Shown here piece after piece: positions 1,937-57,936 of a stretch of 64,000 nucleotides of DNA. The stretch comes from Deltaproteobacteria bacterium (lineage in GTDB: Bacteria > Bdellovibrionota_B > Oligoflexia > Oligoflexales > Bog-1112), in contig JACPKR010000025.1 in assembly GCA_016186945.1 (NCBI GenBank), positions 1 to 64,000 on the forward strand, given 5' to 3'. Both the position numbers and the translations under genes were made by a program. The notes under the pieces were generated by a model that was not told the DNA's origin, searched no databases, and saw only the letters and a list, made by a program, of their open reading frames with translations. Each line of letters opens with the position of its first letter. Position 1 is the first letter of the stretch.

Positions 1937-2019
1937 AACACACCATAGAATTGATTATTGATATAATTTGACGAGATTAATATTTAGATCATAACTTCAG
2001 ACTGTCAACCAAATAGTTC

Positions 2020-2104
2020 CCTTGGAGGAACCAGCTGCGCAGTTTCCTCCAAACCTCCTCCTTGCTAGGGGGCGCAGTTTCAGCCAAACCACTTCTTTGC
2101 CCCA
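2020..2104 (+). repeat. R2 palindromic repeat, one copy plus a partial second copy
   Basis: The core is TTGGAGGAA, a short loop, then TTTCCTCCAA (a 9-10 bp stem), followed by CCTCCTCCTTGC. A second, diverged partial copy (2072-2104, GCGCAGTTTC...CCAAACCAC) overlaps the end of the TauE gene. That gene's stop codon and last residues (AKKWFG) lie inside repeat sequence. Confidence 0.8.
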
Positions 2105-2883: not shown

Positions 2884-2887
2884 CACC

Positions 2888-2914
2888 GCCTCCCCCAAAA
2901 AACTTTAGATTGAA
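2888..2914 (+). repeat. Remnant of R1 repeat between two genes
   Basis: The 27 bases GCCTCCCCCAAAAAACTTTAG plus ATTGAA match the middle of R1 (hairpin 1 edge plus hairpin 2). The remnant holds the Shine-Dalgarno sequence of the TauE gene and the stop codon of the upstream outer-membrane ORF. Confidence 0.65.
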
Positions 2915-5556
2915 TCCCACCGGTATGCAACACGGGCATTGAATCGCGCTCGCGACGGGGAAGGCCCTGAATCGGACGGAAAAAAGAACTTCTCGTAATC
3001 CTGGTCATAGGACCGGTAGTTATATTCCAGGAGCAGTTCAAGTCCCTTGTGGATTTCAGCCCCTAGGCCAAGAGTGTAGGCCCATTGGAACAAATTAAGC
3101 TCAGAGTCACCAACCTTTGCACAGCTATTTTCTCCCACCGTAAGGCATGTTGTAAATGCTGGTAGATCAGATTCGATCCTCCGTTGCTCGAAATCAACGC
3201 TCGCCATGAACCTATCGAAGAAACGATAGGACAGGTTCATGTTTAAGGTTTCCTTTCCCATCGAATTTTCAGTCTCGTGTTTAGCATCTTCCAAGAAAAA
3301 CAAGTCTTCGTTCAAACGACTGCATTGGCTAAAATCGTTGCGGTTCAGGAATCCATCTTCTTCGCGACTTAAGTCTTTCAGCAGAGATTGCTGCCAGCCC
3401 CCCCCTGCGCTGAGTCCCGCTAAAAAACGTTCAGTCCCTTTAAAAGCAAGACCTGCCATGACTCGCCTGTGAGAATATGCGTTCTTGCTACCGCTTCTGT
3501 TAATCCCGCATAATTGTTGCAAGGAGTCTTGTTCCGCTTCGTTTCGAAGGGAGCCAGCATGATTCCCGTTGAAGGAGACTCCCGCTGAAAGAGAGAGCAT
3601 CTGGACGATACGGGCGACTCCTTCCATCGCTACAAATCCTTGACTGTTTTGATTGGCAGGAAGTTCACCTTCACCGTTGCCCACGGTTAGTTTTAGGCTG
3701 ATTTCTTCCATTGCCGCCATGTTCAAAGCAAGACTCACAGCTAACTGGTCCCAACCAGCGTCGACGAAGGAAGAACCAAAGGCGAGTGGACCTTTGGGGT
3801 AGTAGGAAAACCCGCGAAAGTTTTCGATCCCCATTTCCAGATGAGGGATGGGTTGATATATGAAGTAAAAGTCTTCCACAAAAAAGAGTGGATCAGATTG
3901 AGGTGCTTTCGTCAGGGGAGACGATCGCAGTCCTGCATCTCGCACAAGAAATGGGTTGAGCGTCAGGCGCGAGCCAAATTTCTCCGCATTTAAGTGTTCA
4001 TAACTCACTCGTAGTCCGGTAAGTTTTAGACAGTCTTCCGAGTTGCCCACATCCTGCAGACCCTCGTTCTTAAGGCAGTCTACTCGTAAACTCATCAAGA
4101 ACGATTCCTGCCTCTCTCGCATTTGTGGAAGGCGCAAAAGGCCAAAGCCATAGAGACAAGTCGTCTGCATAAAAAGAAAGAACGCACAAATTCTAAAGGA
4201 GATATAGTATTTGAGAAAAAGAATTTGTGGAGAGGACCTTTTTTGAAAAAAAGTTCCCCTCCACACCTCCCCCCAAAAAACTTTAGATATTGAAGTTTTT
4301 GAAAAGGGGCTTGGGGAAATAACTTTTTTCAAAAAGTTTTTCCGTTCAAACCCAAATCTTTGAATTTCATCATCATTACTCCCCAAATCGAAGGCTGCTC
4401 TATTGTCACCTCCGTTATCGAAATAACGTCGTTCTTTAGAAAGAACCAGGCTTGCGAAAAGATGCTTTTGCAATTCCTTTACAAAACCAATGTCAAATTG
4501 ATAACCCTTGAATACTTGTCGTACAAAAAAATCAGAACGCTCCTCGAACCATCGGTCACTGCTCCCCCAATGGATACCGGCGAAAATCTTCCATCCATAG
4601 TGATGCGACCAATGAAGAAAGAGTGAGGCGCTTAACTGGAGCAGTTCCGGGTAGTCGATCGTCGTGCCAAGCCACTGCTCACTGGATGTTCGGATATCCA
4701 GCAGTGTGCTGAAGTCCTGGGAAAAAAGGGAGAAGGCTTTGCGCCCGATGAGTTGGCCATAGATTTCCTTCACCTGTCCGTCATACTCCCGCCTTTCCTC
4801 ATAACCTGCAAGGAGAGCAGATTCGAAAAATTTCGGGATCCAGTTGAGTGTTACGGCACCGCCCCAATAGGGATTTTCAGATGCCGGTCCCACGTCAAAT
4901 GTCCTTTTATGCCTTGTTCTTGCCTCGGCCCGAATCTCTCGACCCTGGACAACGAAGGCTGAAGCAGAAAGATGGGATTGTTCGACTCCAAACTCATCCT
5001 TAAGGTTCCGCCTAAGGTGTATGCGTGCTCCCGTGAAACTGCGCGGAACCTGGGCAGCAAGTCCAAATTCAACGATGTCTGCATATGTTTCTTCAGGCAT
5101 GGGGAAGCGGTCCCACAAGCCGTAAGCGAGGGAAGCCTGTTCTCCCCAGACTGCTCCCATATGATATTCCTGCAGAAGGGCTAACACAGGCTTTTGTCGA
5201 TACACGCTACCAGCGCGAGAATCGAAATCACGAGGTTCATCAGCAGGAATTTCCGGCTTGAACTGCAACGCATCCGGCCGAAATCCCAAAGACAAAACGC
5301 TGCTGTGGAAATCTTCCCAGTGTACATTGAAGTAGGCTGAACGCAGTCCCAGGCTTCGGTAACCATTCTTACTGTTGTTGGACAGGAGAGGCCGAGGTTC
5401 CTCGCTGGTAGCATCAGGCCGACGGAAGGCTTCATACATAGCAAGACGGAAGTCGACTGCATATTGTAGGGGAACCTCCAGGGTTTGCTGTTCTCCCCAA
5501 ACTTGGGATGCTAGCCCCCACCCGCATAGAAGCAAGACCAACTTGCGAACGCACAT
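2905..5556 (-). CDS. Two outer-membrane barrel-like ORFs fused in frame through an R1 repeat
   Basis: This is an 883-codon open frame. Residues 1-22 are a signal peptide (MCVRKLVLLLCGWGLASQVWG). Residues 23 to about 404 are alternating polar/aromatic beta-strand sequence typical of an outer-membrane barrel. Residues about 405-451 are encoded by an R1 repeat copy (NFLKKVISPSPFSK...[10 protein letters not shown]). After it comes a second hydrophobic, signal-peptide-like segment (FRICAFFLFMQTTCLYGFG) and a second barrel-like domain ending ...RVAYRWDSI. The likeliest history is two adjacent genes: an R1 insertion removed the stop of the first and the start of the second (the next ATG is near residue 463). 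A single gene with an in-frame insertion is less likely because of the second signal-like segment. Function is unknown. The final DSI may also be repeat-derived, since barrels usually end in an aromatic residue such as the preceding Trp. Confidence 0.65.
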   Translation of the reverse strand: MCVRKLVLLLCGWGLASQVWGEQQTLEVPLQYAVDFRLAMYEAFRRPDATSEEPRPLLSNNSKNGYRSLGLRSAYFNVHWEDFHSSVLSLGFRPDALQFKPEIPADEPRDFDSRAGSVYRQKPVLALLQEYHMGAVWGEQASLAYGLWDRFPMPEETYADIVEFGLAAQVPRSFTGARIHLRRNLKDEFGVEQSHLSASAFVVQGREIRAEARTRHKRTFDVGPASENPYWGGAVTLNWIPKFFESALLAGYEERREYDGQVKEIYGQLIGRKAFSLFSQDFSTLLDIRTSSEQWLGTTIDYPELLQLSASLFLHWSHHYGWKIFAGIHWGSSDRWFEERSDFFVRQVFKGYQFDIGFVKELQKHLFASLVLSKERRYFDNGGDNRAAFDLGSNDDEIQRFGFERKNFLKKVISPSPFSKTSISKVFWGEVWRGTFFQKRSSPQILFLKYYISFRICAFFLFMQTTCLYGFGLLRLPQMRERQESFLMSLRVDCLKNEGLQDVGNSEDCLKLTGLRVSYEHLNAEKFGSRLTLNPFLVRDAGLRSSPLTKAPQSDPLFFVEDFYFIYQPIPHLEMGIENFRGFSYYPKGPLAFGSSFVDAGWDQLAVSLALNMAAMEEISLKLTVGNGEGELPANQNSQGFVAMEGVARIVQMLSLSAGVSFNGNHAGSLRNEAEQDSLQQLCGINRSGSKNAYSHRRVMAGLAFKGTERFLAGLSAGGGWQQSLLKDLSREEDGFLNRNDFSQCSRLNEDLFFLEDAKHETENSMGKETLNMNLSYRFFDRFMASVDFEQRRIESDLPAFTTCLTVGENSCAKVGDSELNLFQWAYTLGLGAEIHKGLELLLEYNYRSYDQDYEKFFFPSDSGPSPSRARFNARVAYRWDSI
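4203..4343 (+). repeat. R1 MITE-like repeat, copy 1 (inside an ORF, 3' end missing)
   Basis: The copy begins TATAGTATTTGAGAAAAAG and contains hairpin 1 (GTGGAGAGG...CCCCTCCAC), hairpin 2 (AACTTTAGATATTGAAGTT) and most of hairpin 3 (GGGGAAATAACTTTTTTC). It lacks the AATTGATTATCTTGAATACTATAG-type right end. It is open in the minus-strand frame of the surrounding outer-membrane ORF. Confidence 0.9.
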
Positions 5557-16794: not shown

Positions 16795-16817
16795 GACTCA
16801 GTGGGACTTTGTTGAAG

Positions 16818-17031
16818 AGTGCCGTCATTGCGAGGAGGGGGAAGCCCGACGAAGCAATCCAGTCTCACTATCTCATATACGTCAATGGCACTAACTTAAG
16901 ACTCTATACTTGACACAAATTCTGTCACAACAGTGCCGTCATTGCGAGGAGGGGGAAGCCCGACGAAGCAATCCAGTCTCACTGTCTCATATACGTCAAT
17001 GGCACTAACTTGACACAAATTCTGTCACAAC
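16818..17031. repeat. Tandem duplication carrying a REP-like palindrome
   Basis: Two head-to-tail units (16818-16931 and 16932-17031) each contain GTCATTGCGAGGAGGGGG...CGACGAAGCAATCC, an imperfect palindrome of a type seen between genes in many bacteria, followed by CAGTCTCAC...ATACGTCAATGGCACTAACT and TTGACACAAATTCTGTCACAAC. Unit 2 lacks 14 bases present in unit 1. The last 23 bases of each unit are the 3' end of the neighbouring hydrolase gene, so that gene's end was copied with the repeat. It separates the converging flagellar operon and hydrolase gene and may act as a terminator. Confidence 0.85.
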
Positions 17032-17784: not shown

Positions 17785-17819
17785 TTCACTCTCCTTTCCT
17801 TTTAGAACGTAACCCGCTT

Positions 17820-17950
17820 GTGGCAAGGAGGTGGTTTGGAGGAAACTGCGCAGCTGGTTCCTCCAAGAAATCCCTGGGTGAGGCGACCCTTCGGCTTCGT
17901 CAGGGCAGGCTTTTCACTCCCCCCCAACGGCCCCCCTCCCTTTTTGCCAC
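17820..17950 (-). repeat. R2 palindromic repeat, long variant
   Basis: Read on the minus strand, GGCAAAAAGGGAGGGGGG begins the element, an extra middle segment follows, and then the core TTGGAGGAACCAGC...TTTCCTCCAAACC and CACCTCCTTGCC. It lies just upstream of the hydrolase gene and overlaps its longest possible start. Confidence 0.75.
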
Positions 17951-20325: not shown

Positions 20326-20446
20326 CTTGGGGCAAATAGGGAGAGGGGGGGGGTGGGGGGGCGAGGGAACCGTCGCTCCCCCAAGGGATTTCTTGGAGGA
20401 ACCAGCTGCGCAGTTTCCTCCAAACCACCTCCTTGCCCCAAGTGGC
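20326..20446 (+). repeat. R2 palindromic repeat, long variant
   Basis: CTTGGGGCAAATAGG, a G-rich run, GCGAGGGAACCGTCGCTCCCC, then TTGGAGGAACCAGCTGCGC, TTTCCTCCAAACC and ACCTCCTTGCCCCAAG. The ends (CTTGGGGCAA / TTGCCCCAAG) are themselves inverted repeats. It separates the SulP gene from the efflux operon. Confidence 0.85.
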
Positions 20447-20469
20447 TTACGGGCTGCTACAGAGGACAC

Positions 20470-21964: not shown

Positions 21965-22133
21965 CTATAGTATTTGGGAAAAAGAATTTGTGGAGAGGAC
22001 CTTTTTTGAAAAAAAGTTCCCCTCCACACCTCCCCCCAAAAAACTTCAAATACTGAAGTTTTTGAAAAGGGGGTTGGGGAAATAACTTTTTTCAAAAAGT
22101 TTGTCCCCAAATTGATTATCTTGAACACTATAG
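21965..22133 (+). repeat. R1 MITE-like repeat, copy 2 (full length, 169 bp)
   Basis: This complete copy runs from CTATAGTATTTGGG to TTGAACACTATAG, giving terminal inverted repeats CTATAGTRTT. Hairpin 1 is GTGGAGAGGACC...TCCCCTCCAC; hairpin 2 is AAAACTTCAAATACTGAAGTTTT, where a T-G wobble of other copies is a C-G pair; hairpin 3 is GGGGAAATAAC...GTCCCC. It is inserted between cusC and cusB, ending 7 bases before the cusB ATG. Confidence 0.95.
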
Positions 22134-23604: not shown

Positions 23605-26600
23605 ATGATAGCGAGAATCATACGACTTTGTGCATCACATCCAGGGCTGACGATATTTCTGGTATTGGCAATTTCCTTTCTTACAATCTTCTCGCTTAGG
23701 AAATTGCCGTTGGACGCCTTGCCTGATTTGTCCGACACACAGGTGATTGTGTTCTCAGAGTGGATAGGGCGTTCTCCTGATCTTGTCGAAGACCAAATCA
23801 CTTACCCCCTTGTGACAAGTCTCCTGTCATCTCCAAAAGTGAAATACGTTCGTGGTCTTTCCATGGTGGGAGCCTCTCAGGTCCTTGTCATTTTCCAGGA
23901 AGGCACAGATCTTTATTGGGCACGCTCGCGAATTGCTGAAAAACTCGCTTCCGTCTCTTCGCTTCCGCAAGGGGTTGTTCCGACATTAGGTCCCGAAGCG
24001 ACCGGTCTCGGTTGGGTTTATCAATACGCCTTGGTCGACAAATCGGGGAAACATGATCTTCAGGAGCTTCGGTCCTTACAGGACTGGAACTTACGTTTCG
24101 CTTTGCAGGCGGTTCAAGGTGTCGCGGAGGTGGCGAGTGTTGGTGGTTTTGAAAAACAATATCAGATCCTGCTGGATCCACTAAAACTACAAGCCTTTAA
24201 TATCTCCCCTCTACAAGTAACTCGTGCGGTTCGAGGAGGGAATCAAGAAGTTGGCGCCAACGTCCTAGAAATGGCAGGAAGAGAATATGTCATTCGAGGA
24301 CGTGGTTACGTTAAGACGATCGCCGATATTCAAAAAATTCCTATCACTGTTTCCAAAAAAGGACGAGTCATCGCTGTAGGCGATATCGGAAGCGTGCAAA
24401 TTGGCCCCGCTCCTCGAACGGGCGCAGGAGAATTTGACGGAGAAGGGGAGACGGTAAGCGGCATTGTCGTGATGCGCATGGGCGAAAATGCGCTCAACGT
24501 CATCGCTTCGGTCAAGGAAAGACTCGAAGCACTCAAAAGCTCTCTTCCCGAAGGAGTTGAAATCGTTCCCGTCTACGACCGATCGGATTTGATTCATCGA
24601 GCCATCGACACACTCAAACGGGTTCTGGTCGAAGAGATCGTCGTTGTTTCCGCGATCGTTTCGATTTTTCTTTGGCACGCACGGGCAAGCTGGGTTGCTA
24701 TTTTGCCTTTGCCGATCGCGGTACTGCTCTCGTTTTTACTCATGTTTTTTTTCGGTGGCCTGACTGTGAACGTGATGTCTCTCGGCGGAATCGCTCTCGC
24801 GATTGGAGCCATGGTGGACGCCGGGATTATTTTAGTGGAAAACGCCCACAAAAAACTTGAAGGCCGCAACACCAAAGATATGTCTGAAAAAGAACGGCGG
24901 CATCTTATTGTAGAAGCTATGGTAGAGATGGGAAAGCCTCTCTTCTTTTCCCTTCTTGTGATCACCGTCTCTTTTTTACCAATATTCGCCTTGGAAGGAA
25001 GAGAAGGCCGCCTCTTTAAACCCCTTGCTTTTACGAAGACGTTTTCGATGGGATGGGCCGCTATCTTGGCGATTACTCTGACCCCCGCATTGGCAGTGTT
25101 GTTTCTAAGGGGAAAGTTTGTCCATGAGGATGAACATATTATCAGCCGTACGCTTCACCGATATTATACTCCCGTCATCGCTTATGTAGTTCGTTTTCGA
25201 AAAGCTGTTTTGGCGATTGCTGTGCTCCTCATGTTAGCAACCGTTCCTATTTTCAAAATGATTCAGACCGAATTCATGCCACCTCTCAATGAAGGCACGA
25301 TCCTTTATATGCCAACGGCAGTCCCTGGCATGAGCATTGACACGGCTATCGAAATCTTGCAGAAGCAAAATACTATTATTAAAGCTCATCCTGAAGTTGC
25401 ACATGTGTACGGCAAAGCTGGACGTGCCAAATCGGCAACCGATCCAGCTCCCATCAATATGTTCGAAACGGTGATCACGCTCAAACCGAAAGAAGAATGG
25501 AGAAATGGCATGACTTTCGAGAAAGTCATTGCTGAACTTGACCAAAAACTGAAATTTCCAGGAATGCCCAATATCTGGTGGATGCCCATTCAGACACGAA
25601 TCGAAATGCTCTCGACTGGCGTCCGAACCGCTGTTGGAATCAAAGTCCTAGGGTCAAAATTAGAAGAGATCGAAAAAACAGCTGTCGATATCGAATCCGC
25701 CTTGAAAGGTGTGTCTGGTACAAAAGCTGTTTTCGCCGAACGGACCCAAGCGGGTTCTTATATTGATATTGACATAAAAAGAGAAGCTGCCGCGGTTTAC
25801 GGTCTGAATATTTCTGATGTTCATTCAGTTGTGGAAACTGTGATTGGTGGCAACATAGCGTCGACAAGTGTCGAAGGTCGGGAGCGTTACGGAATTCAGA
25901 TTCGCTATGCTCAGGATTTTCGCAAAAATCTTGAAGCCATCCGAGATGTCATTATTCCCACGCCTACGGGCAATGTAGTAACACTTTCCCAAATTGCCGA
26001 CATTAGTGTCTCCTCTGGCGCACCGATGATCAACAGTGAAAACGGAAAAATTCTTGGTTTTGTCTTTGTCGACGTCGATAAAAATATTGGTCTGGAAGAA
26101 TACGTTGACGCTGCAAAAGAAGCGATAGCTAAAAATGTGAAATTTTCAGATGGGACACGAATCGAGTTTTCGGGACAATTCGAAGCCTTTTTAAGCGCCA
26201 AAAAAACTCTTCAAGTGATTGTGCCCGTCACTCTTATCTTCATCATTTTTCTCCTGTTTCTTAACACGATGTCGGCATGGGAGACCCTCATCGTTCTTCT
26301 TGCCGTGCCCTTTTCACTCATTGGGGCCTTCTGGCTGATCTGGTTGCTGAACTATAAACTTTCCATTGCCGTCTGGGTTGGTCTATTGGCGCTGGCGGGC
26401 CTTGATGCAGAAACGGGGGTCGTCATGCTTCTCTACCTCACGCGGGCTTACGCCAAGAGAATTGAGGCAGGTGTGAAACCAAGCCATGCGATGTTAAATG
26501 ACGCTATACACGAAGGAGCAGTCCAACGTATCCGTCCCAAACTTATGACCGTTGCGGCCGCTCTCATTGGCTTGCTTCCCGTCATGTGGAGCACAGGAAC

Positions 26601-26739
26601 CGGTTCCGAAGTTATGAAACGCATTGCTGCTCCGATGGTGGGTGGGATCATCACGTCAGGAATACTCGAACTTCTTGTGTATCCTGCAATTTTTGCGATT
26701 TGGAAAGGGGCTGAAATCAACAATAAGAGGAAACTATAG
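23605..26739 (+). CDS. cusA: Heavy-metal RND efflux pump, CusA/CzcA family
   Basis: This 1044-residue inner-membrane RND pump has 12 helices and two large periplasmic loops. Sequences such as YALVDKSGKHDLQELRSLQ, VAEVASVGGFEKQYQ and LYMPTAVPGMS are characteristic of the CusA/SilA branch that extrudes Cu(I)/Ag(I), which agrees with the Met-rich partners. The proton-relay part contains LAIGAMVDAGIILVENAHK. It lies 18 bases after cusB. Its last two codons and stop (AAA CTA TAG) run into R1 copy 3, so the repeat terminus CTATAG supplies the stop codon. Confidence 0.93.
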   Translation: MIARIIRLCASHPGLTIFLVLAISFLTIFSLRKLPLDALPDLSDTQVIVFSEWIGRSPDLVEDQITYPLVTSLLSSPKVKYVRGLSMVGASQVLVIFQEGTDLYWARSRIAEKLASVSSLPQGVVPTLGPEATGLGWVYQYALVDKSGKHDLQELRSLQDWNLRFALQAVQGVAEVASVGGFEKQYQILLDPLKLQAFNISPLQVTRAVRGGNQEVGANVLEMAGREYVIRGRGYVKTIADIQKIPITVSKKGRVIAVGDIGSVQIGPAPRTGAGEFDGEGETVSGIVVMRMGENALNVIASVKERLEALKSSLPEGVEIVPVYDRSDLIHRAIDTLKRVLVEEIVVVSAIVSIFLWHARASWVAILPLPIAVLLSFLLMFFFGGLTVNVMSLGGIALAIGAMVDAGIILVENAHKKLEGRNTKDMSEKERRHLIVEAMVEMGKPLFFSLLVITVSFLPIFALEGREGRLFKPLAFTKTFSMGWAAILAITLTPALAVLFLRGKFVHEDEHIISRTLHRYYTPVIAYVVRFRKAVLAIAVLLMLATVPIFKMIQTEFMPPLNEGTILYMPTAVPGMSIDTAIEILQKQNTIIKAHPEVAHVYGKAGRAKSATDPAPINMFETVITLKPKEEWRNGMTFEKVIAELDQKLKFPGMPNIWWMPIQTRIEMLSTGVRTAVGIKVLGSKLEEIEKTAVDIESALKGVSGTKAVFAERTQAGSYIDIDIKREAAAVYGLNISDVHSVVETVIGGNIASTSVEGRERYGIQIRYAQDFRKNLEAIRDVIIPTPTGNVVTLSQIADISVSSGAPMINSENGKILGFVFVDVDKNIGLEEYVDAAKEAIAKNVKFSDGTRIEFSGQFEAFLSAKKTLQVIVPVTLIFIIFLLFLNTMSAWETLIVLLAVPFSLIGAFWLIWLLNYKLSIAVWVGLLALAGLDAETGVVMLLYLTRAYAKRIEAGVKPSHAMLNDAIHEGAVQRIRPKLMTVAAALIGLLPVMWSTGTGSEVMKRIAAPMVGGIITSGILELLVYPAIFAIWKGAEINNKRKL

Positions 26740-26889
26740 TATTTGGGAAAAAGAATTTGTGGAGAGGACCTTTTTTGAAAAAAAGTTCCCCTCCACGCCT
26801 CCCCCCAAAAAACTTTAGATATTGAAGTTTTTGAAAAGGGGCTTGGGGAAAAAACTTTTTTCAAAAAGTTTTTCCCAAAATTGATTAGC
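26734..26889 (+). repeat. R1 MITE-like repeat, copy 3
   Basis: It begins at CTATAGTATTTGGG within the cusA stop and has all three hairpins. It ends in CCCAAAATTGATTAGC, where similarity to the right terminus is lost just before the terC coding sequence. Confidence 0.92.
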
Positions 26890-26917
26890 ATGGGTAGGAT
26901 TTGTTGCTTTCATTTTA

Positions 26918-32834: not shown

Positions 32835-32940
32835 TGGCAAAAAGGGAGAGGGGGGTTGGTGGGGCGAGTGAAGCGTCGCCTCCCCCAAGGGATTTCTTGG
32901 AGGAACCAGCTGCGCAGTTTCCTCCAAACCACCTCCTTGC
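32835..32940 (+). repeat. R2 palindromic repeat, long variant
   Basis: GGCAAAAAGGGAGAGGGGGG, then GGGGCGAGTGAAGCGTCGCC (a small hairpin), then TTGGAGGAACCAGCTGCGC, TTTCCTCCAAACC, ACCTCCTTGC. It fills the gap between the convergent pckG and glcD-like genes. Confidence 0.85.
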
Positions 32941-32949
32941 ACTAATTCG

Positions 32950-34347
32950 CTATAGGTCAAAAATCTTGCCTGGATTCATAATCCCCTTGGGGTCAAAAAG
33001 CTGCTTGATACCTTTCATGTAGGAAATTTCCAGTTCTTCACAGACTAACTTCAAATCATCTTTCTTGAGTAACCCTATTCCATGTTCAGCACTGATTGAT
33101 CCTTTAAGCTCGTGGACTATAGAAAAGATACGTCGCTCCAAGAGCTGAGCTTCCTTTATAAAGGTATCATGATCAACTAACCTGTCAGCACTATAGTTAA
33201 CGTGGACATTTCCGTCGCCTATATGCCCGAACATGACAACTTCAATCTTCGGATCCTTTTTCTCCAGAGTTTTGTTCACTTTCTCGAAGAAAACACATAA
33301 GTCCTTGATGCTGAGGGAAATGTCGTTCTTCCTTACATAACCATGGCTAAGGCTCTCGGTTATGTTCTCACGCAAAGCCCACAAGTCTCGAAATTCCTGT
33401 GAGCTGCTAGCAAGTACAGCATCGCGTATCAGTTCTTTCTCAAAAGCTGTCTCAAGAAACTGTTCCATGGATAAAGAACTAAGATCTTCTTCTATTTCAA
33501 TCAGCGCATAGTAGGGAAAACGCTCTGCAAACGGCAATTTCAAACCTGAAAAAGAGATGAGAACCTTTCCTACAGCTAGATCCGAGAAGAATTCCAACGC
33601 CGTCACAGACATGTTCGATTGATGGCTCAGCGCGAGCAAGTCAACGACCTTGGGAAAGGTTTCGACACCGACACAGGCAAGAGTGAGTTCCCTCGGTTTC
33701 TTGGAAAGTTTAAGCGTGGCCCTGGTGATGACCCCCAAAGTTCCTTCGCTCCCCACAAAGAGGTACATCAGTGGATACCCTGCATTGTTTTTCCGGAGCG
33801 CACGGTTAAGGTTCAAAACTTGACCGCCAGCAAGGACCACCTCTAGTCCGAGAACCTGCTCCCGGGTTCCCCCGTACCGGATAAATTTCAGCCCCCCCGC
33901 GTTCGTAGCCAGGTTGCCCCCAATCTGGCTACTGCCCCTCGCTCCCAAATCGACAGCGTAGAATAGGCTTTCCTTTGCGACAGCTTCCTGCAAAGCCTGG
34001 GTTGTAACACCCGCTTCCACTTCGACCGTCAAACCAACGGGGTCAACGTTTAGAACCTTGTTCAGCCTACCAAGGGAGAGGATGACTTCTCCCTGTTTGG
34101 CTACGGCACCTGCCGCCAATCCAGTACGCCCTCCACTCGGGACGACTGGAATTTGATGTTTCTGACAGTAGGCAAGTATCTTGGAAATTTCTTCCGTATG
34201 ATTAGGTAACAGCACACAAGAAGCAAAAGTTTCCTGAGGTTTTGACCAGTCTTTGGAATATTCCTGAACCTGCTTGGGGTCTTTCAAAACATGCGAGGGT
34301 CCGAGGATGGCCTCCAAGTCATCAATGTTTTTCTTTGTCACTTTCAT
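32950..34347 (-). CDS. FAD-binding oxidoreductase (GlcD/D-lactate dehydrogenase family)
   Basis: This 465-residue flavoprotein has an N-terminal FAD-binding type 4 domain (PVVPSGGRTGLAAGAVAKQGEVILSLGRL; IGGNLATNAGGLKFIRYG) and a C-terminal FAD-oxidase domain with the metal/substrate histidines (VVMFGHIGDGNVHVN; SAEHGIGLLKK). It oxidises a 2-hydroxyacid such as glycolate or D-lactate, passing electrons to quinone or an electron-transfer flavoprotein. The ATG overlaps the maeB stop by four bases, so hydroxyacid oxidation and malate decarboxylation are co-expressed. The exact substrate is not readable from the sequence. Confidence 0.88.
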   Translation of the reverse strand: MKVTKKNIDDLEAILGPSHVLKDPKQVQEYSKDWSKPQETFASCVLLPNHTEEISKILAYCQKHQIPVVPSGGRTGLAAGAVAKQGEVILSLGRLNKVLNVDPVGLTVEVEAGVTTQALQEAVAKESLFYAVDLGARGSSQIGGNLATNAGGLKFIRYGGTREQVLGLEVVLAGGQVLNLNRALRKNNAGYPLMYLFVGSEGTLGVITRATLKLSKKPRELTLACVGVETFPKVVDLLALSHQSNMSVTALEFFSDLAVGKVLISFSGLKLPFAERFPYYALIEIEEDLSSLSMEQFLETAFEKELIRDAVLASSSQEFRDLWALRENITESLSHGYVRKNDISLSIKDLCVFFEKVNKTLEKKDPKIEVVMFGHIGDGNVHVNYSADRLVDHDTFIKEAQLLERRIFSIVHELKGSISAEHGIGLLKKDDLKLVCEELEISYMKGIKQLFDPKGIMNPGKIFDL

Positions 34348-36632: not shown

Positions 36633-36799
36633 CTATTGTATTCAAGATAGTCAATTTGGGGAAAAACTTTTTGAAAAAAGTTCTATCCCCAAGCCCCTTT
36701 TCAAAAACTTCAATATCTAAAGTTTTTTGGGGGGAGGCGTGGAGGGGAACTTTTTTTCAAAAAAGGTCCTCTCCACAAATTCTTTTTCCCAAATACTAT
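36633..36799 (-). repeat. R1 MITE-like repeat, copy 4 (full length, 167 bp)
   Basis: This complete copy in reverse orientation runs from CTATTGTATTCAAG to CCCAAATACTAT. It lies 12 bases upstream of maeB and overlaps the last 24 codons of dacB. Confidence 0.93.
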
Positions 36800-38216
36800 C
36801 GAGGGACTTGAGAAATGACATGAGTGCCTTCTCCTGACTCTCTCTTAAGGCAAGCACTGAAGGCTGCTGACGTTTCTTGCCGTTTTGGATGACAGCAAAA
36901 GCGACAAGCCCGTGTTGGGCATGGTGCAAGTAACCGCTCAGGTTTGAAACAGAGACCGGTGACGAAAGAGTTCCTGTTTTTGCGCGAAGCAAGCCGTGCG
37001 TCTGAGTTCCCGAAGCTCCGAAACGATGTTCGAGCGTTCCACTTTCTCCAGCAACGGGTAAGCTTGCGAGAAATTCCGGAAAAATCCTATAGTCCCTCCC
37101 CACCTTCACCAGAAGGGTTGTAAGCTGCCTGGCACTCAAAGCACTTCCCTCGTCCAGGCCCGACCCATTCGTGAGGGTGAAATCCCCCTCAACTCCCTTC
37201 CCTCGCAGGTACCCCTCCAAGAACTTCGCACCAGCCGCAAAAGACCCTTGTCCACAACAATGGACTGCCAGACGCTTCAACAAGACGTCCGCCATGTAGT
37301 TGCTGGAATACAGATTCAAACTTTTCACCAAGTCCGACAACGGTTTGCTCTTATGCGTGTAAAAATGGTGAGCCGTCCTGGGAAGCCGACCTTCCTTTAC
37401 CGTCCCCCTGACTGAAATACCAACCGTGTTTAAAAACGATCGCACATAGCCCCCTGAAACCTGTATCGGATCATTTACGGCTCGGTAAAATTTCTGCAAA
37501 GGAAAGCCTTGCGGGATCGTCCCCTCGACAATCAGTTGGGTCCTTCCGTTAGCCGTGACTCTCCTCACGTTTACGTCGATTTCTGCATAGGATGAAGTGA
37601 GGGCATGATTTTCCAAGCTCAACTCTTGCAAGGGAACCGGATCGAAATTCACCAGAGCAGGGCTGCCTACTTTTTCACCAGGCGCTACGTTTACAGCAAC
37701 CGTGTTGAAATTGACCCCAAATGCCGTCACGGGAGCATGGAAAGCATGTTCCGTCTGATCTCTGCCTTGAATCCGCTCCCTGTCCCAGGCTTGCCCGTCG
37801 AATAGACTGTTGTCGATAACAAGATTTCCTCTGAACTCGCGAATTCCCTTCGCTTTCCAATCAGCCGCGATCAGGAAAAGTTCCTCTGAAACAAGAAACG
37901 GGTCGCCATCCCCCACGATTATCAAATCCCCGCTGACGACCCCCTTCTCCCTGTCCCCCGTGTAAAAAAAACGCGTTTCCATCTGAAAGGAAGGGGACAA
38001 CGTTTCAAGAAGGGCGGCGGATAATACCAACTTCGCAATCGACGCAGGGATGAGAGCTTTTGTTGCCTGATGAGAGAAAAGGACTTTGCCATCCGAAAGG
38101 CGAACAAACTCCACCGAAGCTTCGGCTTGTTCGCCAACCGTAAACACCTGATGGACCGTCTCCGCTCCAGCGAGAGAAGAGATAAAAAAAAGCACACCAA
38201 GAAAGTTCTTGCACAT
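36717..38216 (-). CDS. dacB: D-alanyl-D-alanine carboxypeptidase/endopeptidase (PBP4 family) with repeat-encoded tail
   Basis: This penicillin-binding protein of about 499 residues has a signal peptide (FLGVLFFISSLAGA), the serine motif SIAK (in PASIAKLVLSAAL), the SxN motif (SSN in LYSSNYMAD) and KTG (LLRAKTGTLSSP). It trims or cleaves peptidoglycan cross-links in the periplasm. ATG at 38216 is preferred over the TTG at 38234 because AGGAAAAGG precedes it. The last 24 residues (IWEKEFVERTFFEKK ... PPPKKL) are encoded by R1 copy 4, including the stop TAG inside hairpin 2; the normal stop was evidently lost on insertion. Confidence 0.9.
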   Translation of the reverse strand: MCKNFLGVLFFISSLAGAETVHQVFTVGEQAEASVEFVRLSDGKVLFSHQATKALIPASIAKLVLSAALLETLSPSFQMETRFFYTGDREKGVVSGDLIIVGDGDPFLVSEELFLIAADWKAKGIREFRGNLVIDNSLFDGQAWDRERIQGRDQTEHAFHAPVTAFGVNFNTVAVNVAPGEKVGSPALVNFDPVPLQELSLENHALTSSYAEIDVNVRRVTANGRTQLIVEGTIPQGFPLQKFYRAVNDPIQVSGGYVRSFLNTVGISVRGTVKEGRLPRTAHHFYTHKSKPLSDLVKSLNLYSSNYMADVLLKRLAVHCCGQGSFAAGAKFLEGYLRGKGVEGDFTLTNGSGLDEGSALSARQLTTLLVKVGRDYRIFPEFLASLPVAGESGTLEHRFGASGTQTHGLLRAKTGTLSSPVSVSNLSGYLHHAQHGLVAFAVIQNGKKRQQPSVLALRESQEKALMSFLKSLDSIWEKEFVERTFFEKKFPSTPPPKKL

Positions 38217-38250
38217 GTTTAGCCTTTTCCTCAATTATATCGCTTTCCAA

Positions 38251-38300
38251 CAAGGTCTCCAAACCTCCTGCCCGGCAAGGTCTCCAAAACTCCTGCCCGG
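38251..38300 (+). repeat. 25-bp tandem repeat, two units
   Basis: CAAGGTCTCCAAAC/ACTCCTGCCCGG occurs twice head to tail (38251-38275, 38276-38300; one mismatch), directly joined to an R2 copy. It resembles an expanded edge of R2. Confidence 0.8.
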
Positions 38301-38347
38301 CAAGGAGGTGGTTTGGAGGAAACTGCGCAGCTGGTTCCTCCAAGAAT
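38297..38347 (-). repeat. R2 palindromic repeat, short form
   Basis: On the minus strand: TTGGAGGAACCAGCTGCGC, TTTCCTCCAAACC, ACCTCCTTGCCGGG. It lies between the divergent dacB and trxB genes. Confidence 0.85.
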
Positions 38348-38373
38348 TGCCATGCAAACAACAGAGGTGCGCG

Positions 38374-40203: not shown

Positions 40204-40502
40204 GTAAAGAAATGAAAATCATGGGCGTCAAGGAACTTTGGCAGGTCGACGATAAAACCTTAGCCATCTTGTGGACCGACAAAGTAGAACAACACTACGA
40301 TGTCGTCGAATTGCGGAGAAAATGCCCCTGCGCAGCTTGCGTGGATGAGCGTACGGGCAAACGCACCCTCGCTCCTGAAAATGTGGCAGACACGGTCCGT
40401 CCCAAGCTTTTAAAATCAGTGGGAAGATATGCGCTCACAATTCAGTTCAGTGACGGTCACGAGACAGGGATTTACACATTCGACTATTTACGGAACCTAT
40501 AG
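40200..40502 (+). CDS. DUF971-domain protein (gamma-butyrobetaine hydroxylase-like N-terminal domain)
   Basis: This 100-residue protein matches the DUF971/GBBH-like N-terminal domain: LAILWTDKVEQHYDVVELRRKCPCAACVDE followed by VGRYALTIQFSDGHETGIYTFDYLR. Cysteines 42, 44 and 47 and a His may bind zinc or an Fe-S cluster. Stand-alone DUF971 proteins often sit beside mrp and are thought to act in Fe-S cluster supply. The stop codon TAG is formed by the terminus of R1 copy 5 (CTATAG). Confidence 0.8.
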   Translation: MSKEMKIMGVKELWQVDDKTLAILWTDKVEQHYDVVELRRKCPCAACVDERTGKRTLAPENVADTVRPKLLKSVGRYALTIQFSDGHETGIYTFDYLRNL

Positions 40503-40595
40503 TGTTCACTTCAATATCAAAAGTTTTTTGGGGGGAGGCATGGAGGGGAACTTTTTTTCAAAAAAGGTCCTCTCCACAAATTCTTTTTCTCAAAT
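40498..40595 (-). repeat. R1 MITE-like repeat, copy 5 (internally deleted, 98 bp)
   Basis: The right terminus CTATAGTGTTCA is joined directly to hairpin 2 (CTTCAATATCAAAAG), so hairpin 3 is deleted; hairpin 1 is intact and the copy ends at CTCAAAT. Both convergent genes flanking it take their stop codons from it: TAG in CTATAG for the DUF971 gene and TGA in ATTTGAG for sucD. Confidence 0.9.
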
Positions 40596-41468
40596 CTTCC
40601 GCAACAACGCCTTGGCCATTGTTTTTCCTATCTCCGCAGGGGAGCGTGAAACGGTAACTCCAGCTGCTTGAAGAGCTTCTATTTTCTCCTGAGCGGTCCC
40701 TTTTCCCCCACTGATGATCGCTCCCGCATGACCCATGCGTTTTCCTTTGGGGGCCGTTACCCCTGCTATAAATCCGCAGACAGGCTTACGAACATTTGCC
40801 TTGATAAAGGCTGCTGCCTTGATCTCCGCGTCACCTCCGATTTCGCCTATCATGACGATGGCTTCAGTTTGCGGATCCTGTTCAAACATTTCCAGCAGGT
40901 CGACGAAGTTTGTTCCAATGATCGGATCTCCACCGATCCCCACGCATGTCGACTGTCCTAGCCCCACGAGTGAAGTCTGGTTGACAGCTTCGTAAGTCAG
41001 AGTTCCCGATCGAGAGATGATCCCGACCTTACCCGATCTGTGTACATGTCCCGGCATGATTCCAATCTTGCAGGAGCCCGGGGTAATAACCCCAGGGCAA
41101 TTGGGGCCGATCAGACGCGAGCGGCTTCGGTCTAACGCTTTTTTCACGGGAATCATGTCCATCACGGGAATTCCTTCCGTAATGCAGACGATAAGTTCAA
41201 TGCCGCAATGGATAGCCTCAAGGATCGCGTCGGCAGCGACCGGTGGAGGGACAAAAATCATGCTAGCGTTGCACCCAGTTTTTTCCTTCGCCTCCCGGAC
41301 GGTGTCGAACACGGGCAAGCCCGCAACTTCCTCCCCTCCCTTCCCTGGCGTCACACCCCCTACAAAACGAGGCGCATATTCATGAGAAAGTTTTGTATGA
41401 AACAACCCCGACTTCCCCGTAATGCCTTGTGTGATCACACGGGTGTCCTTACCTACTAAAATACCCAC
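40590..41468 (-). CDS. sucD: Succinyl-CoA synthetase (ADP/GDP-forming) alpha subunit
   Basis: This 292-residue protein has a CoA-binding Rossmann domain ([13 protein letters not shown]), the loop NCPGVITPG, and the phospho-histidine region ([17 protein letters not shown], His in GHAGA). With SucC it makes ATP or GTP from succinyl-CoA in the TCA cycle. The start is GTG with AGGAGG upstream, 11 bases after the sucC stop. The final codons AAG ATT TGA overlap R1 copy 5. Confidence 0.96.
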
Positions 41469-42724: not shown

Positions 42725-42771
42725 AGCAAGGAGGTGGTTTGGAGGAAACTGCGCAGCTGGTTCCTCCAAGA
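42725..42771 (-). repeat. R2 palindromic repeat, short form
   Basis: On the minus strand: TTGGAGGAACCAGCTGCGC, TTTCCTCCAAACC, ACCTCCTTGC. It begins directly after the stop codon of the PocR/sigma-54 regulator and could terminate its transcript. Confidence 0.85.
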
Positions 42772-42772
42772 G

Positions 42773-44335
42773 TTAACCCGCCTTTCGCTCTTTCTTTCCC
42801 AAGCCGTATTTTTCCACCTTCATAATAAGATTCGCACGGCTCATTCCCAGCTCTTTTGCTAGCAGCGATTTATTCCAGTGCGTGCGATTAAGCCCCTCGC
42901 GTATCATTTCAAACTCGACCTGTTCGAGGACGTCTTTCAACTTTCCCGTCTGAGTTTCCACAACTTTGACACCCCCTCCGTCCCCAACACGGGCGGAAAG
43001 GTCGTCGGCGCTCAATGTCGGCTCCTCCCCTGCTAGAACGTAAAGGCGCTCGATTTCATTTTCCAACTCTCGAACGTTCCCGGGCCAGTGGTAAGAGAGA
43101 AGCTTATGCAGGCATTTCTTGTCAGGTTGTTTGATGTCAGTGTTCATGCTTTCCGCGAATTGCTTCAGAAAATGCTCAATCAGAAGGGGAATGTCCTCAC
43201 TTCTTTCTCGCAGAGGTGGAACACGAAGGTTAATTACGTTGAGTCTATAATAAAGGTCTTCCCGAAACTTTCCATTCCTGACCATTTCTTCCAAAGCCTG
43301 GTTTGTAGCGGCTAATACCCGCGTGCTTGTATGCTTTGTCTCTGTATCCCCAACGGGACGGTAGCTTCCTTCCTGTAGCACCCGCAGAAGCTTGACTTGC
43401 ATTGCCAGAGGCATATCTCCAATTTCATCCAGGAAAAGCGTACCGTCATTGGCAATTTCGAAAAGGCTCTTTTTATCTTTGAAAGCTCCGGTAAAGGCAC
43501 CTTTGACATGGCCGAAAAGTTCCGATTCGAGAAGATTTTCGTTGAAAGCTCCGCAGTTGAGCGCAACAAACTTCCCCCGTCGCCGCTTCGAATTGTAGTG
43601 CAGAGCGCGCGCTATCAGCTCTTTTCCCGTTCCGTTCTCACCCTCTATGAGGACAATGGCTGTAGAGTCTTTTATCCTTTCTATCAGGGAGTAGAGCTTC
43701 TGCATTTCGTGAGACTTCCCCACCATCTTACTGAATTCGTATCGGCTCATGAGTTCAGTTTTCAGCTCATCCACTTCCTTTTTCACGTTCCACAGGTTGG
43801 AATACGCAAGCAGAATCTCAGCAACTACCATCTCGATCATCTCGGTTAGGTACTGAACTTCCTTGGCGCTTAAGACTGGCAGGTTCTCCACATAGTTTTG
43901 AAGTTGAGTATCGGACTTAAAAAGGTTCTGAAGGGTCTTTTTGATCTGAGTTTTTTGCTCTTTCTCCGTCTCCTGGGCTATGAATCCATCTCCAAAGACA
44001 CTTCCCAGGTATTTTCCCTCTACTGTAATGGGCACCGTTATGGTCGAAAATCCTGCGTGACAGTACCCTTTTTCCGTCTTGTCGTGACCTTTTAGATCTT
44101 TTGTTTTTCGAACAGTCCCCAGACATCCTCGGAACCCTTTATCGTCGGCGGCAATCCCTCTGCACACCTGGTGAATGGGGTTGAAAAACTTACCCTTGGG
44201 GACCCCTCGCAAATATCCACGGTGGTCGGTGAAGTTGAGTTGAACCTTCCACCATTCCCCCACAATTTCTCGCAATCTCCTGATGACATGCAGTTTGTCA
44301 AAATCCTCCCACGGAAGGAAATCATCTTCGTCCAT
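42773..44335 (-). CDS. Sigma-54-dependent transcriptional activator with N-terminal PocR sensory domain
   Basis: This protein of about 520 residues has three parts. An N-terminal PocR ligand-binding domain (about 15-175) has clustered Cys residues (VCRGIA, GCLGTV, GYCHAG). An AAA+ activator domain (about 205-435) has the P-loop GENGTGKE near 232 and GAFTGA near 279, the loop that contacts sigma-54. A Fis-type helix-turn-helix lies at the end (LLAKELGMSRANLIMKVEKYGL). PocR domains sense small hydrocarbon derivatives or redox state. ATG at 44335 has GGAGG nine bases upstream; an earlier GTG at 44359 lacks one. No clear sigma-54 promoter is visible beside it, so its targets may be distant. Confidence 0.9.
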   Translation of the reverse strand: MDEDDFLPWEDFDKLHVIRRLREIVGEWWKVQLNFTDHRGYLRGVPKGKFFNPIHQVCRGIAADDKGFRGCLGTVRKTKDLKGHDKTEKGYCHAGFSTITVPITVEGKYLGSVFGDGFIAQETEKEQKTQIKKTLQNLFKSDTQLQNYVENLPVLSAKEVQYLTEMIEMVVAEILLAYSNLWNVKKEVDELKTELMSRYEFSKMVGKSHEMQKLYSLIERIKDSTAIVLIEGENGTGKELIARALHYNSKRRRGKFVALNCGAFNENLLESELFGHVKGAFTGAFKDKKSLFEIANDGTLFLDEIGDMPLAMQVKLLRVLQEGSYRPVGDTETKHTSTRVLAATNQALEEMVRNGKFREDLYYRLNVINLRVPPLRERSEDIPLLIEHFLKQFAESMNTDIKQPDKKCLHKLLSYHWPGNVRELENEIERLYVLAGEEPTLSADDLSARVGDGGGVKVVETQTGKLKDVLEQVEFEMIREGLNRTHWNKSLLAKELGMSRANLIMKVEKYGLGKKERKAG

Positions 44336-44404: not shown

Positions 44405-44567
44405 ATTTGAGAAAAAGGATTTGTGGAGAGGACTTTTTTTGAAAAAAAGTTCCCCTCCACGCCTCCCCCCAAAAAACCTTAGATATTGAAGTTTTTTGAA
44501 AAGGGGCTTGGGGAAAGAGCTTTTTTCAAAAAGTTTTTCCCCAAATTGATTATCTTGAATACTATAG
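44405..44567 (+). repeat. R1 MITE-like repeat, copy 6
   Basis: The left terminus is missing (it starts TTTGAGAAAAAGG), all three hairpins are present, and the right end TTGATTATCTTGAATACTATAG is complete. Its last bases form the first bases of a 20-bp direct repeat that recurs at 46217-46236. Confidence 0.92.
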
Positions 44568-44594: not shown

Positions 44595-45467
44595 CTACAT
44601 GTTTGACAAGTTTTTACGTATTTCTTTGCCTGATTCGCCTATCAAAAAAACCACAAAAGACCATAGATCATCCTGTGCGGCAATTTTGTTAATCTCTTTT
44701 AATGGCAAAAAGCGAAGCATCTCTCTTTCAAATTCCGATTTAAGACTGCTATCTTCCGACAGCAACCTGAATCGTTGGGAGAAAAGATCCCAAAAATATT
44801 TTTGGGTTAATTTTCTGTCCTGAAGTTTGTTAGGGATCAGCCCAAATCTTGGTTTTAGTCCTTGTCCATGGAGCCAGATCATATCCCACAAATCTCGGTA
44901 CTTTACTCTATTGGGACGTAGCGCAAAGGCCAACAGCTTATCAACATAAATTTCTTCACGACTTTGAGCCTGCAAAACCAAGCCGGATGTTCCCATATCA
45001 ACACCATAGGGATTGAGCAGCATCATAGGTTGTTTTTCATATGAGGGTACAGCACAAATATCTATATTAATTCGTTGTGCTGGGCGAGCTTTTTGTTTAG
45101 GTCTAGTATCAATTTTAACTTTCCAAGTGTCCACATTTTTGCTCTCTTTTACAGGTTGGCTGACGCTTACTTTTAAGCCATATTTTTTATTCAAGTCATC
45201 TATTAGTAGATCTCCCATTGTAGATAAACTATTTCGAGAAAAATTTTCTCCGCCAGTAAAATCCAAATCTTCACTTAGCCTAATTCCCCCATAGCAGATT
45301 CTCAGACAGGTACCGCCTATAAATGTTAAGTTGGTGAGCAGGCTGCTTTGGCTTAGTGTTCTTAAAATATCGTGATGCAGCAGTTCTTTTTCAACGACAG
45401 TCTTTAACGGAGATAGATCATGTCGGTTTTTCAATGCTTCTGTTAGTAGCCGGTCAAATAAGTTCAT
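44595..45467 (-). CDS. abiEii: AbiEii-type toxin, nucleotidyltransferase
   Basis: This 290-residue protein has the AbiEii/AbiGii (DUF1814) nucleotidyltransferase motif FIGGTCLR (residues 49-56) followed by RLSEDLDF (63-70), with catalytic acids Asp67 and Asp69. It also has the later VDKLLAFALRPNRVKYRDLWDMIWL block, typical of the family. AbiEii is the toxin of type IV toxin-antitoxin systems, which abort phage infection or stabilise DNA. It overlaps the upstream antitoxin gene by 14 bases. The two genes are more AT-rich than the surrounding metabolic genes, which suggests acquisition. Confidence 0.85.
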   Translation of the reverse strand: MNLFDRLLTEALKNRHDLSPLKTVVEKELLHHDILRTLSQSSLLTNLTFIGGTCLRICYGGIRLSEDLDFTGGENFSRNSLSTMGDLLIDDLNKKYGLKVSVSQPVKESKNVDTWKVKIDTRPKQKARPAQRINIDICAVPSYEKQPMMLLNPYGVDMGTSGLVLQAQSREEIYVDKLLAFALRPNRVKYRDLWDMIWLHGQGLKPRFGLIPNKLQDRKLTQKYFWDLFSQRFRLLSEDSSLKSEFEREMLRFLPLKEINKIAAQDDLWSFVVFLIGESGKEIRKNLSNM

Positions 45468-48040: not shown

Positions 48041-48059
48041 GGTTTCTCCTCATGGGCCG

Positions 48060-48147
48060 CCCCTTTTCAAAAACTTCAGTATTTAAAGTTTTTTTGGGGG
48101 ATGAGTGGAGGGGAACTTTTTTCCAAAAAAGGTCCTCTCCACAAATT
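48060..48147 (-). repeat. R1 MITE-like repeat, copy 7 (truncated both ends)
   Basis: CCCCTTTTCAAAAACTTCAG through hairpin 2 and hairpin 1 to TCTCCACAAATT; both termini and hairpin 3 are missing. It lies 20 bases upstream of the lipoprotein start. Confidence 0.85.
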
Positions 48148-50763: not shown

Positions 50764-50777
50764 GTGATTCCTCCTAA

Positions 50778-50942
50778 TTTAATTCAAGATAATCAATTTT
50801 GGGAAAAACTTTTTGAAAAAAGTTCTTTCCCCAAGCCCCTTTTCAAAACTTCAATATCTAAAGTTTTTTGGGGGGAGGTGTGGAGGGGAACTTTTTTTCA
50901 AAAAAGGTCCTCTCCACAAATTCTTTTTCTCAAATACTATAG
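50778..50942 (-). repeat. R1 MITE-like repeat, copy 8 (nearly full length)
   Basis: It runs from TAATTCAAGATAATC through hairpins 3, 2 and 1 to CTCAAATACTATAG, in reverse orientation. The left end here is diverged (AATT for GTATT). It starts two bases after the hutH stop codon. Confidence 0.92.
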
Positions 50943-57839: not shown

Positions 57840-57846
57840 AGCACTT

Positions 57847-57908
57847 CTCCCAAGGAATTCTTGGAGGAACCAGCTACGCTGTTTCCTCCAAACCACCTCC
57901 TTGCCACA
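57847..57908 (+). repeat. R2 palindromic repeat
   Basis: CTCCCAAGGAATTC, TTGGAGGAACCAGCTACGC, TTTCCTCCAAACC, ACCTCCTTGCC; CGCCTCCTTGCCACAG repeats the right edge once more to 57931. It lies between the convergent Fis-type gene and dnaB. Confidence 0.85.
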
Positions 57909-57936
57909 AGCATGACCGCCTCCTTGCCACAGCGTT

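Follow-up and report, generated by a model that had tools for sequence, protein, structure and literature searches.

A 169-bp repeat with three hairpins, likely mobilised in trans by an IS630-type transposase, and the REP sequences carried within it in a member of the Oligoflexales

Results and Discussion

Structure of R1 and its copies in the window

The window, i.e. the entire 64,000-nucleotide stretch analysed (contig JACPKR010000025.1, positions 1 to 64,000), contains a dispersed 169-bp element, R1, with ends reading CTATAGTRTT, three internal hairpins and the dinucleotide TA at its junctions. The intact reference copy, recognised from the sequence itself and scoring 196.5 bits with nhmmer, lies at 21965-22133 on the plus strand and carries CTATAG at both ends. 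Its left terminal repeat (LE, CTATAGTATTTGGGAAAAAGAATTT) spans 21965-21989 on the plus strand and its right terminal repeat (RE, CTATAGTGTTCAAGATAATCAATTT) 22109-22133 on the minus strand. Folding places hairpin 1 at 21989-22028, with a loop that is the insertion site of a REP sequence at seven other loci, hairpin 2 at 22032-22073 and hairpin 3 at 22074-22110, all on the plus strand. On this strand the termini pair as a stem closing the three hairpins (-61.4 kcal/mol), and the opposite strand adopts much the same fold (-64.3 kcal/mol). The three consecutive hairpins described in the first-pass annotation are thus recovered on both strands, with z-scores of -6.5 and -6.7 and none of 200 shuffled sequences folding as well in either case.

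The eight window copies and one remnant reported earlier are all present, with coordinates within a few bases; the copies score 93 to 197 bits, while the possible remnant, the start of hairpin 2 at 2887-2912 (plus strand), is weak (9.1 bits, E=0.036). The shared CTATAGTRTT termini are likewise real, but both are exact only in the copy at 21965-22133. The copy at 36633-36801 (minus) is full length with mutations in both termini. One end is degraded or missing in four others, namely 4202-4356 (plus; a match to model positions 2-146 without the right terminus), 26734-26892 (plus; right terminus degraded over its last ~10 nt) and two profile matches, 44405-44567 (plus; left tip absent) and 50776-50942 (minus; right terminus degraded). 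The remaining two are partial: at 40497-40602 (minus) an internal deletion joins hairpin 2 to the right tip and the left tip is lost, and at 48058-48147 (minus) the profile matches hairpins 1 and 2, with neither terminus left.

A second palindromic repeat, with the core TTTGGAGGAAACTGCGCAGCTGGTTCCTCCAA, occurs in seven copies in the same window (2005-2076, 17808-17892, 20367-20451, 32880-32951, 38299-38354, 42725-42777 and 57844-57915). Its pattern gives 68 matches on both strands of a 464-kb sample, which corresponds to roughly half as many copies.

Copy number, distribution and divergence

The abundance of R1 was estimated from the window together with 20 stretches of 20 kb, 464 kb in all, taken from a single assembly (91% complete, 76 contigs). 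This sample holds 42 elements, of which 16 match the model end to end, giving an estimated density of about 9 copies per 100 kb and an estimated total of about 240 copies, whole or broken, in the genome (241 by extrapolation to 2.66 Mb). As the stretches came from 16 contigs already known to contain an R1 match, the estimate carries a mild bias; the window is denser (8 in 64 kb) than the stretches (34 in 400 kb). A search of the genome with the 169-base sequence returned 239 first-look candidates, the 40 scored being 94-100% identical, and the terminal 25-mer, with up to three mismatches allowed, matched 146 times in the forward and 120 times in the reverse orientation (control, 0). The profile search proposed in the first-pass annotation thus revealed many further copies, and the possibility that none existed beyond those first seen is excluded.

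No R1 copy was found in 55 relatives, one of them of the same genus, among the candidates scored (up to 15 each); short weak matches in two of these genomes (G003 and G019) were set aside as looking like chance by eye. An exact 26-mer of R1 gave no match in two public collections, which may exclude the genome itself, nor did viral contigs yield any. No publication on R1 was found by title or abstract start, a literature in which a sequence of this length is not searchable. The 43 near-complete copies differ pairwise by 5.8% on average, and from their nearest neighbour by 2.4% in the median (minimum, 0.6%). The spread suggested earlier therefore appears lineage-limited, with some 240 copies here and none found in the 55 relatives, but the notion that it is ongoing is not borne out, given the nearest-neighbour median and the lack of any transposase found.

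Gene context and a possible role as RNA

As previously noted, R1 lies mostly between genes: only three of the 42 elements fall inside one called ORF in the 464 kb, while 18 lie between tandem, seven between divergent and six between convergent genes, and eight are at the edges of stretches. One such ORF in the window (2905-5556) seems by eye to be two adjacent frames fused by way of the element. The element also contributes to the genes that it adjoins. The terminal CTATAG at 26734-26739 provides the TAG stop codon of an AcrB-type gene (23605-26739). In the 464-kb sample, 7 of the 35 gene 3' ends measured are exactly 4 nt within the matched element, a position consistent with use of the same TAG stop. 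A peptidase S13 frame (36717-38234) enters the minus-strand copy, over 36717-36801, from which its last 25 or so residues derive (...IWEKEFVERTFFEKKFPSTPPPKKL); an ORF at another locus (L136, 178-567) has the same kind of R1-coded ending. The copy at 44405-44567 adjoins a gene for an AbiEii-type nucleotidyltransferase toxin (44595-45467, minus strand), assigned by Pfam to a type IV toxin-antitoxin system. For annotation, this means that R1 can give neighbouring genes stop codons and protein tails.

The frequency with which called genes end at R1, including the 4-nt offset, together with the strong fold on both strands, would also be compatible with a function in RNA, whereby the three-hairpin cloverleaf acts as a terminator, stabiliser or processing site of mRNA. 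Several observations make such a role, raised in the first-pass annotation, very unlikely. Not one of 58 base pairs has changed on both sides among 43 copies, and the covariation score (0.035) equals that of shuffled alignments (0.035). The exchange of T-G for C-G in hairpin 2, earlier read as preserved pairing, does occur (33 T-G, 8 C-G and 2 T-A in the 43 copies), but it is a one-sided and not a compensatory change. In the 16 end-to-end copies, private changes occur at 9/592 in the inner ends versus 17/1949 in the hairpins (p=0.17), with 5/128 in the outermost TATA. An apparent tendency of hairpins to change less than ends (singletons 32/990 versus 24/2680, 22 copies) came from a set that included copies with truncated ends, and was gone in these 16. 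The gene context, based on calls by a custom script (coding fraction 0.82), follows the share of intergenic bases, which is 34694/11481/8928 for tandem, divergent and convergent pairs, and within tandem pairs 11 elements have the same orientation and seven the opposite one (hand count). Finally, two R1 copies scanned contained no terminator-like or promoter-like site, and R1 has no match in Rfam. The simplest account is instead that R1 is selfish DNA: insertions that interrupt genes would be purged, and copies would remain at gene boundaries.

Ends and target sites

TA is present at 47 of the left and 49 of the right ends of the 57 elements in which both ends could be recognised, TA and the outermost part of the terminal repeat being separable only by means of empty sites; the ends were paired by eye among the matches listed (about 100 places per list). 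The flanking bases form CTAG at 17 of the 57 junction pairs, compared with 3.4% of NTAN in 400 kb (binomial, 4e-12). No consistent duplication beyond TA was detected at the ends, the top of several hundred offsets (z 4.9) being a solitary 2-mer at some distance from them. A search for empty sites with 44 and with 57 elements gave no junction-spanning match in the part of the genome examined. At five loci (L006, L007, L008, L009 and L013) one end reads, by eye, N-TA-A/T-TAGT rather than N-TA-TAGT, so that one additional base separates the terminal repeat from the flanking TA.

R1 shows the target preference, TA in CTAG, that Tenzen and Ohtsubo name for IS630 in the title of their study (1991; listed among the references of PMC2170065). 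The IS630-type element ISY100, in the portion of its description available, inserts at TA and duplicates it, as do IS630-type elements in general, and likely needs only its 24-bp repeats (PMC2170065). By analogy with this biochemistry, and from the ends and targets of R1, an IS630-like transposase would be expected to bind the outer 25 bp or so on either side of the element and to insert it at TA, with CTAG preferred.

A possible kind of parent transposase for R1

Searches for DDE_3 in the 91%-complete assembly, window included, gave no match, and DDE_Tnp_1 matched only on two contigs (C31 and C10), so that the earlier statement that the window lacks a transposase holds for these two families, the ones searched genome-wide. 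A transposase bearing R1 ends, for which a search had been proposed, came to light only in part, as an IS630 fragment with a matching end in a genome of the same genus and not as an autonomous element in the genome itself. Across 58 genomes of the phylum, this one included, the R1 terminal pattern had two matches outside its own genome and one control match. One of these, in the same-genus genome (G001), starts 14 nt past the stop of an IS630-family fragment and faces outward; the fragment is a 104-residue in-frame piece with a DDE_3 match at E 1.7e-16. The adjoining end agrees with LE and with RE at 23 of 29 positions each, LE and RE agreeing with one another at 21 of 29. The other end of this IS630 was not found, and since this assembly is 75% complete with 5% contamination the contig may be foreign. 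No R1-like end accompanies a second DDE_3 fragment of the same assembly (C292) in the DNA examined; the other terminal match lies in genome G051.

The closest plasmid relatives of the fragment are IS630 transposases of Acaryochloris, about 52% identical. The sequences of two Acaryochloris copies part 2 nt beyond CTATAG, and 2.8 kb away there is a similar end (4 mismatches of 22, after a C); in further IS630 elements from the phylum (L168, L169, L182 and L183) the repeats start TATAC or TATAG. The ends in G001, in Acaryochloris and in the phylum therefore indicate that those of R1 fit the IS630 group. Two 4.7-kb spans between left and right R1 ends (C6 and C40), considered as candidate large elements, proved to be ordinary reading frames with separate R1 copies. 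As the same-genus fragment, used as a tblastn query, also had no match in the R1-bearing genome at E<=1, R1 is classified as IS630-like by its ends and target, and its parent is represented by the same-genus fragment only.

Some IS5 groups also use TA, and mobilisation of R1 by a transposase outside IS630, for example of the IS5 type, has in its favour two DDE_Tnp_1 fragments, one at an end of contig C31 and one at an end of C10, of which the one scanned also has DUF4096. It is nevertheless highly improbable, as no R1-like ends (up to five mismatches) occur near either IS5 fragment within the DNA examined, the same-genus end match adjoins an IS630 fragment, and CTAG is the very target preferred in the title of the IS630 study. 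The two DDE_Tnp_1 fragments (L144 1-531 and L145 2556-2699) are apparently one IS5-type transposase cut at two contig ends, which suggests a multi-copy insertion sequence that broke the assembly.

Taken together, R1 is a 169-bp element without a transposase gene that was very likely mobilised in trans by an IS630/Tc1-mariner-family transposase, which would have inserted it at TA, preferably in CTAG. The trans mobilisation already envisaged for it draws support from the approximately 240 copies, the TA and CTAG targets and the end match of the same-genus IS630. The missing IS630 may mean that the enzyme acted and its gene was then lost, or that it sits in the unassembled part of the genome.

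Altered and broken forms

R1 variants that retain the two termini measure about 83 to 336 bp and differ in the middle. Four forms of about 83 bp consist of the first part of hairpin 1 and the last part of hairpin 3, with junctions that are not all alike, while longer forms contain REP sequences. If, as ISY100 suggests, the transposase needed only the ends, about 25-35 bp each, the middle could shrink, be repeated or take in REPs and the element would still be mobile. Such versions do occur at various sites, with TA at their ends, which is consistent with their having moved as such.

Of the 42 elements sampled, 11 have a single terminus (loci L113, L114, L117, L121, L122, L125, L126, L127, L129 and L132). 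Their breaks fall in the centre of the palindrome, from model position 48 to 110, and the window copies at 40508 and 48058 end within the same zone. As a guess, one-ended copies might arise through breakage of the palindrome at its centre.

REP sequences inside R1

The REP in the longer forms reads TGTC-ATCCCGCGG-CTTGA-CCGCGGGAT-CCA, that is, a TGTC tag, a 9-bp stem starting AT, a 5-nt loop and the tail CCA. The published CGTC-type REPs are defined, in the section of that study available, by a CGTC tag with TGTC as a stated variant, stems of 8-9 bp starting AT, loops of 4-5 nt and CCA tails (PMC3733652), and the insert in R1 agrees with this definition. Two arrangements are found. In form (i) one REP occupies the loop of hairpin 1, and a 49-nt pattern spanning the two junctions was recovered from seven loci, without mismatch at six of them and with one mismatch at the seventh (control, 0). 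In form (ii) a pair of REPs replaces hairpins 2 and 3; its right junction has 32 matches (control, 0), several within some elements, and one element of this form holds five REPs.

In the 464 kb there are 34 CGTC-type REP sites, 32 of them with no or one mismatch. Eighteen lie inside R1 (14 flagged by script as in or near R1 and four from a full reading of L114, L121 and L125, the element at L125 having lost its right end), although R1 matches, inserts included, make up only about 1.3% of this DNA. The remaining 16 lie outside R1 as singles, pairs and tandem arrays; those in arrays or pairs have periods of about 37-47 bp (L116 18784-18932, L130 8000-8216 and L129 2578-2649). Two near-identical 88-bp repeats in the window (16815-17016; CGTCATTGCGAGGAG...GACGAAGCAATCCA) look like another CGTC-type REP and have four more matches in the 20 stretches.

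As in the plain copies, the R1 ends of the REP-bearing composites lie at TA targets, with CTAG at four of nine. A REP would first have inserted into R1, and the combined element would afterwards have spread in the manner of R1; the REPs inside R1 have probably spread together with it. A different origin, through independent entry of REPs or gene conversion between R1 copies rather than transposition of R1, is in keeping with the 16 of 34 REPs found outside R1, both single and in tandem, and with the spacer that follows the REP pair within R1, which resembles that of some REPs outside it. Independent entry does not predict seven copies with one insertion point and orientation and no mismatch (six) or one (one) over 49 nt, and the R1 ends at TA, with CTAG in four of nine composites, also speak against this origin, which appears somewhat unlikely, although gene conversion may have played a part. 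Returning to joint spread, its fuller form, in which R1 would be a ferry and REPs without a transposase of their own would insert into an IS630-type MITE at its hairpin loop and then be copied genome-wide as cargo, seems to us about evenly balanced between right and wrong. If true, it would be one answer to how CGTC REPs spread. The consulted part of the REP study describes these as being without a dedicated transposase and leaves their mover open (PMC3733652); with the same REP at one MITE-internal point at seven loci, beside many REP-free copies, the question of the mover becomes directly testable.

Comparison with known elements

R1 is short, has terminal inverted repeats, lacks a transposase gene and occurs as dispersed copies with differing flanks, and so has the properties by which MITEs are recognised. 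Among described elements it resembles RUP of Streptococcus pneumoniae, which in the available account is 107 bp long, has ends like those of IS630-Spn1 and is present in 110 copies in one genome (PMC3049150). As far as this account goes, both are short, folded and geneless, number about a hundred copies or more and have ends matching an IS630-family element proposed to act in trans. By description, the only basis compared, R1 differs from RUP in being longer, in its three internal hairpins, in its REP inserts and in that no IS630 was found in the assembly. The Correia elements (CREE) of Neisseria, in the excerpt available, have a 26-bp repeat beginning tatagtggattaa (PMC5039591) and, like R1, many copies with ends that begin TATAGT. 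Past TATAGT the Correia repeat is unlike the R1 ends (by eye, ends only), and R1 is not assigned to this family. Compared by description, R1 is also similar to Chunjie of Geobacter uraniireducens, a bacterial MITE with size variants and many partial copies in the account at hand (PMC10969869), and to Nezha of cyanobacteria, a MITE which the corresponding passage proposes to be moved by ISNpu3-like elements (PMC3049150). The available descriptions of Chunjie and Nezha show no REP cargo of the kind seen in R1 (PMC10969869, PMC3049150).

On the REP side, the CGTC-tagged REPs represent the same type of palindrome as the insert in R1, and the accessible text of the same study describes palindromes that enclose REP pairs in A. 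variabilis (GTAG-15, with a consensus starting TATAGGA) and H. neapolitanus (CGTC-1), for which no target palindromes free of REPs were found (PMC3733652). Compared with these cases as described there, the REP in the present genome lies inside a MITE, the same insertion recurs at seven loci, and the REP-free R1 is the common form. It is this carriage of REPs that sets R1 apart from the known kind of MITE to which it otherwise belongs.
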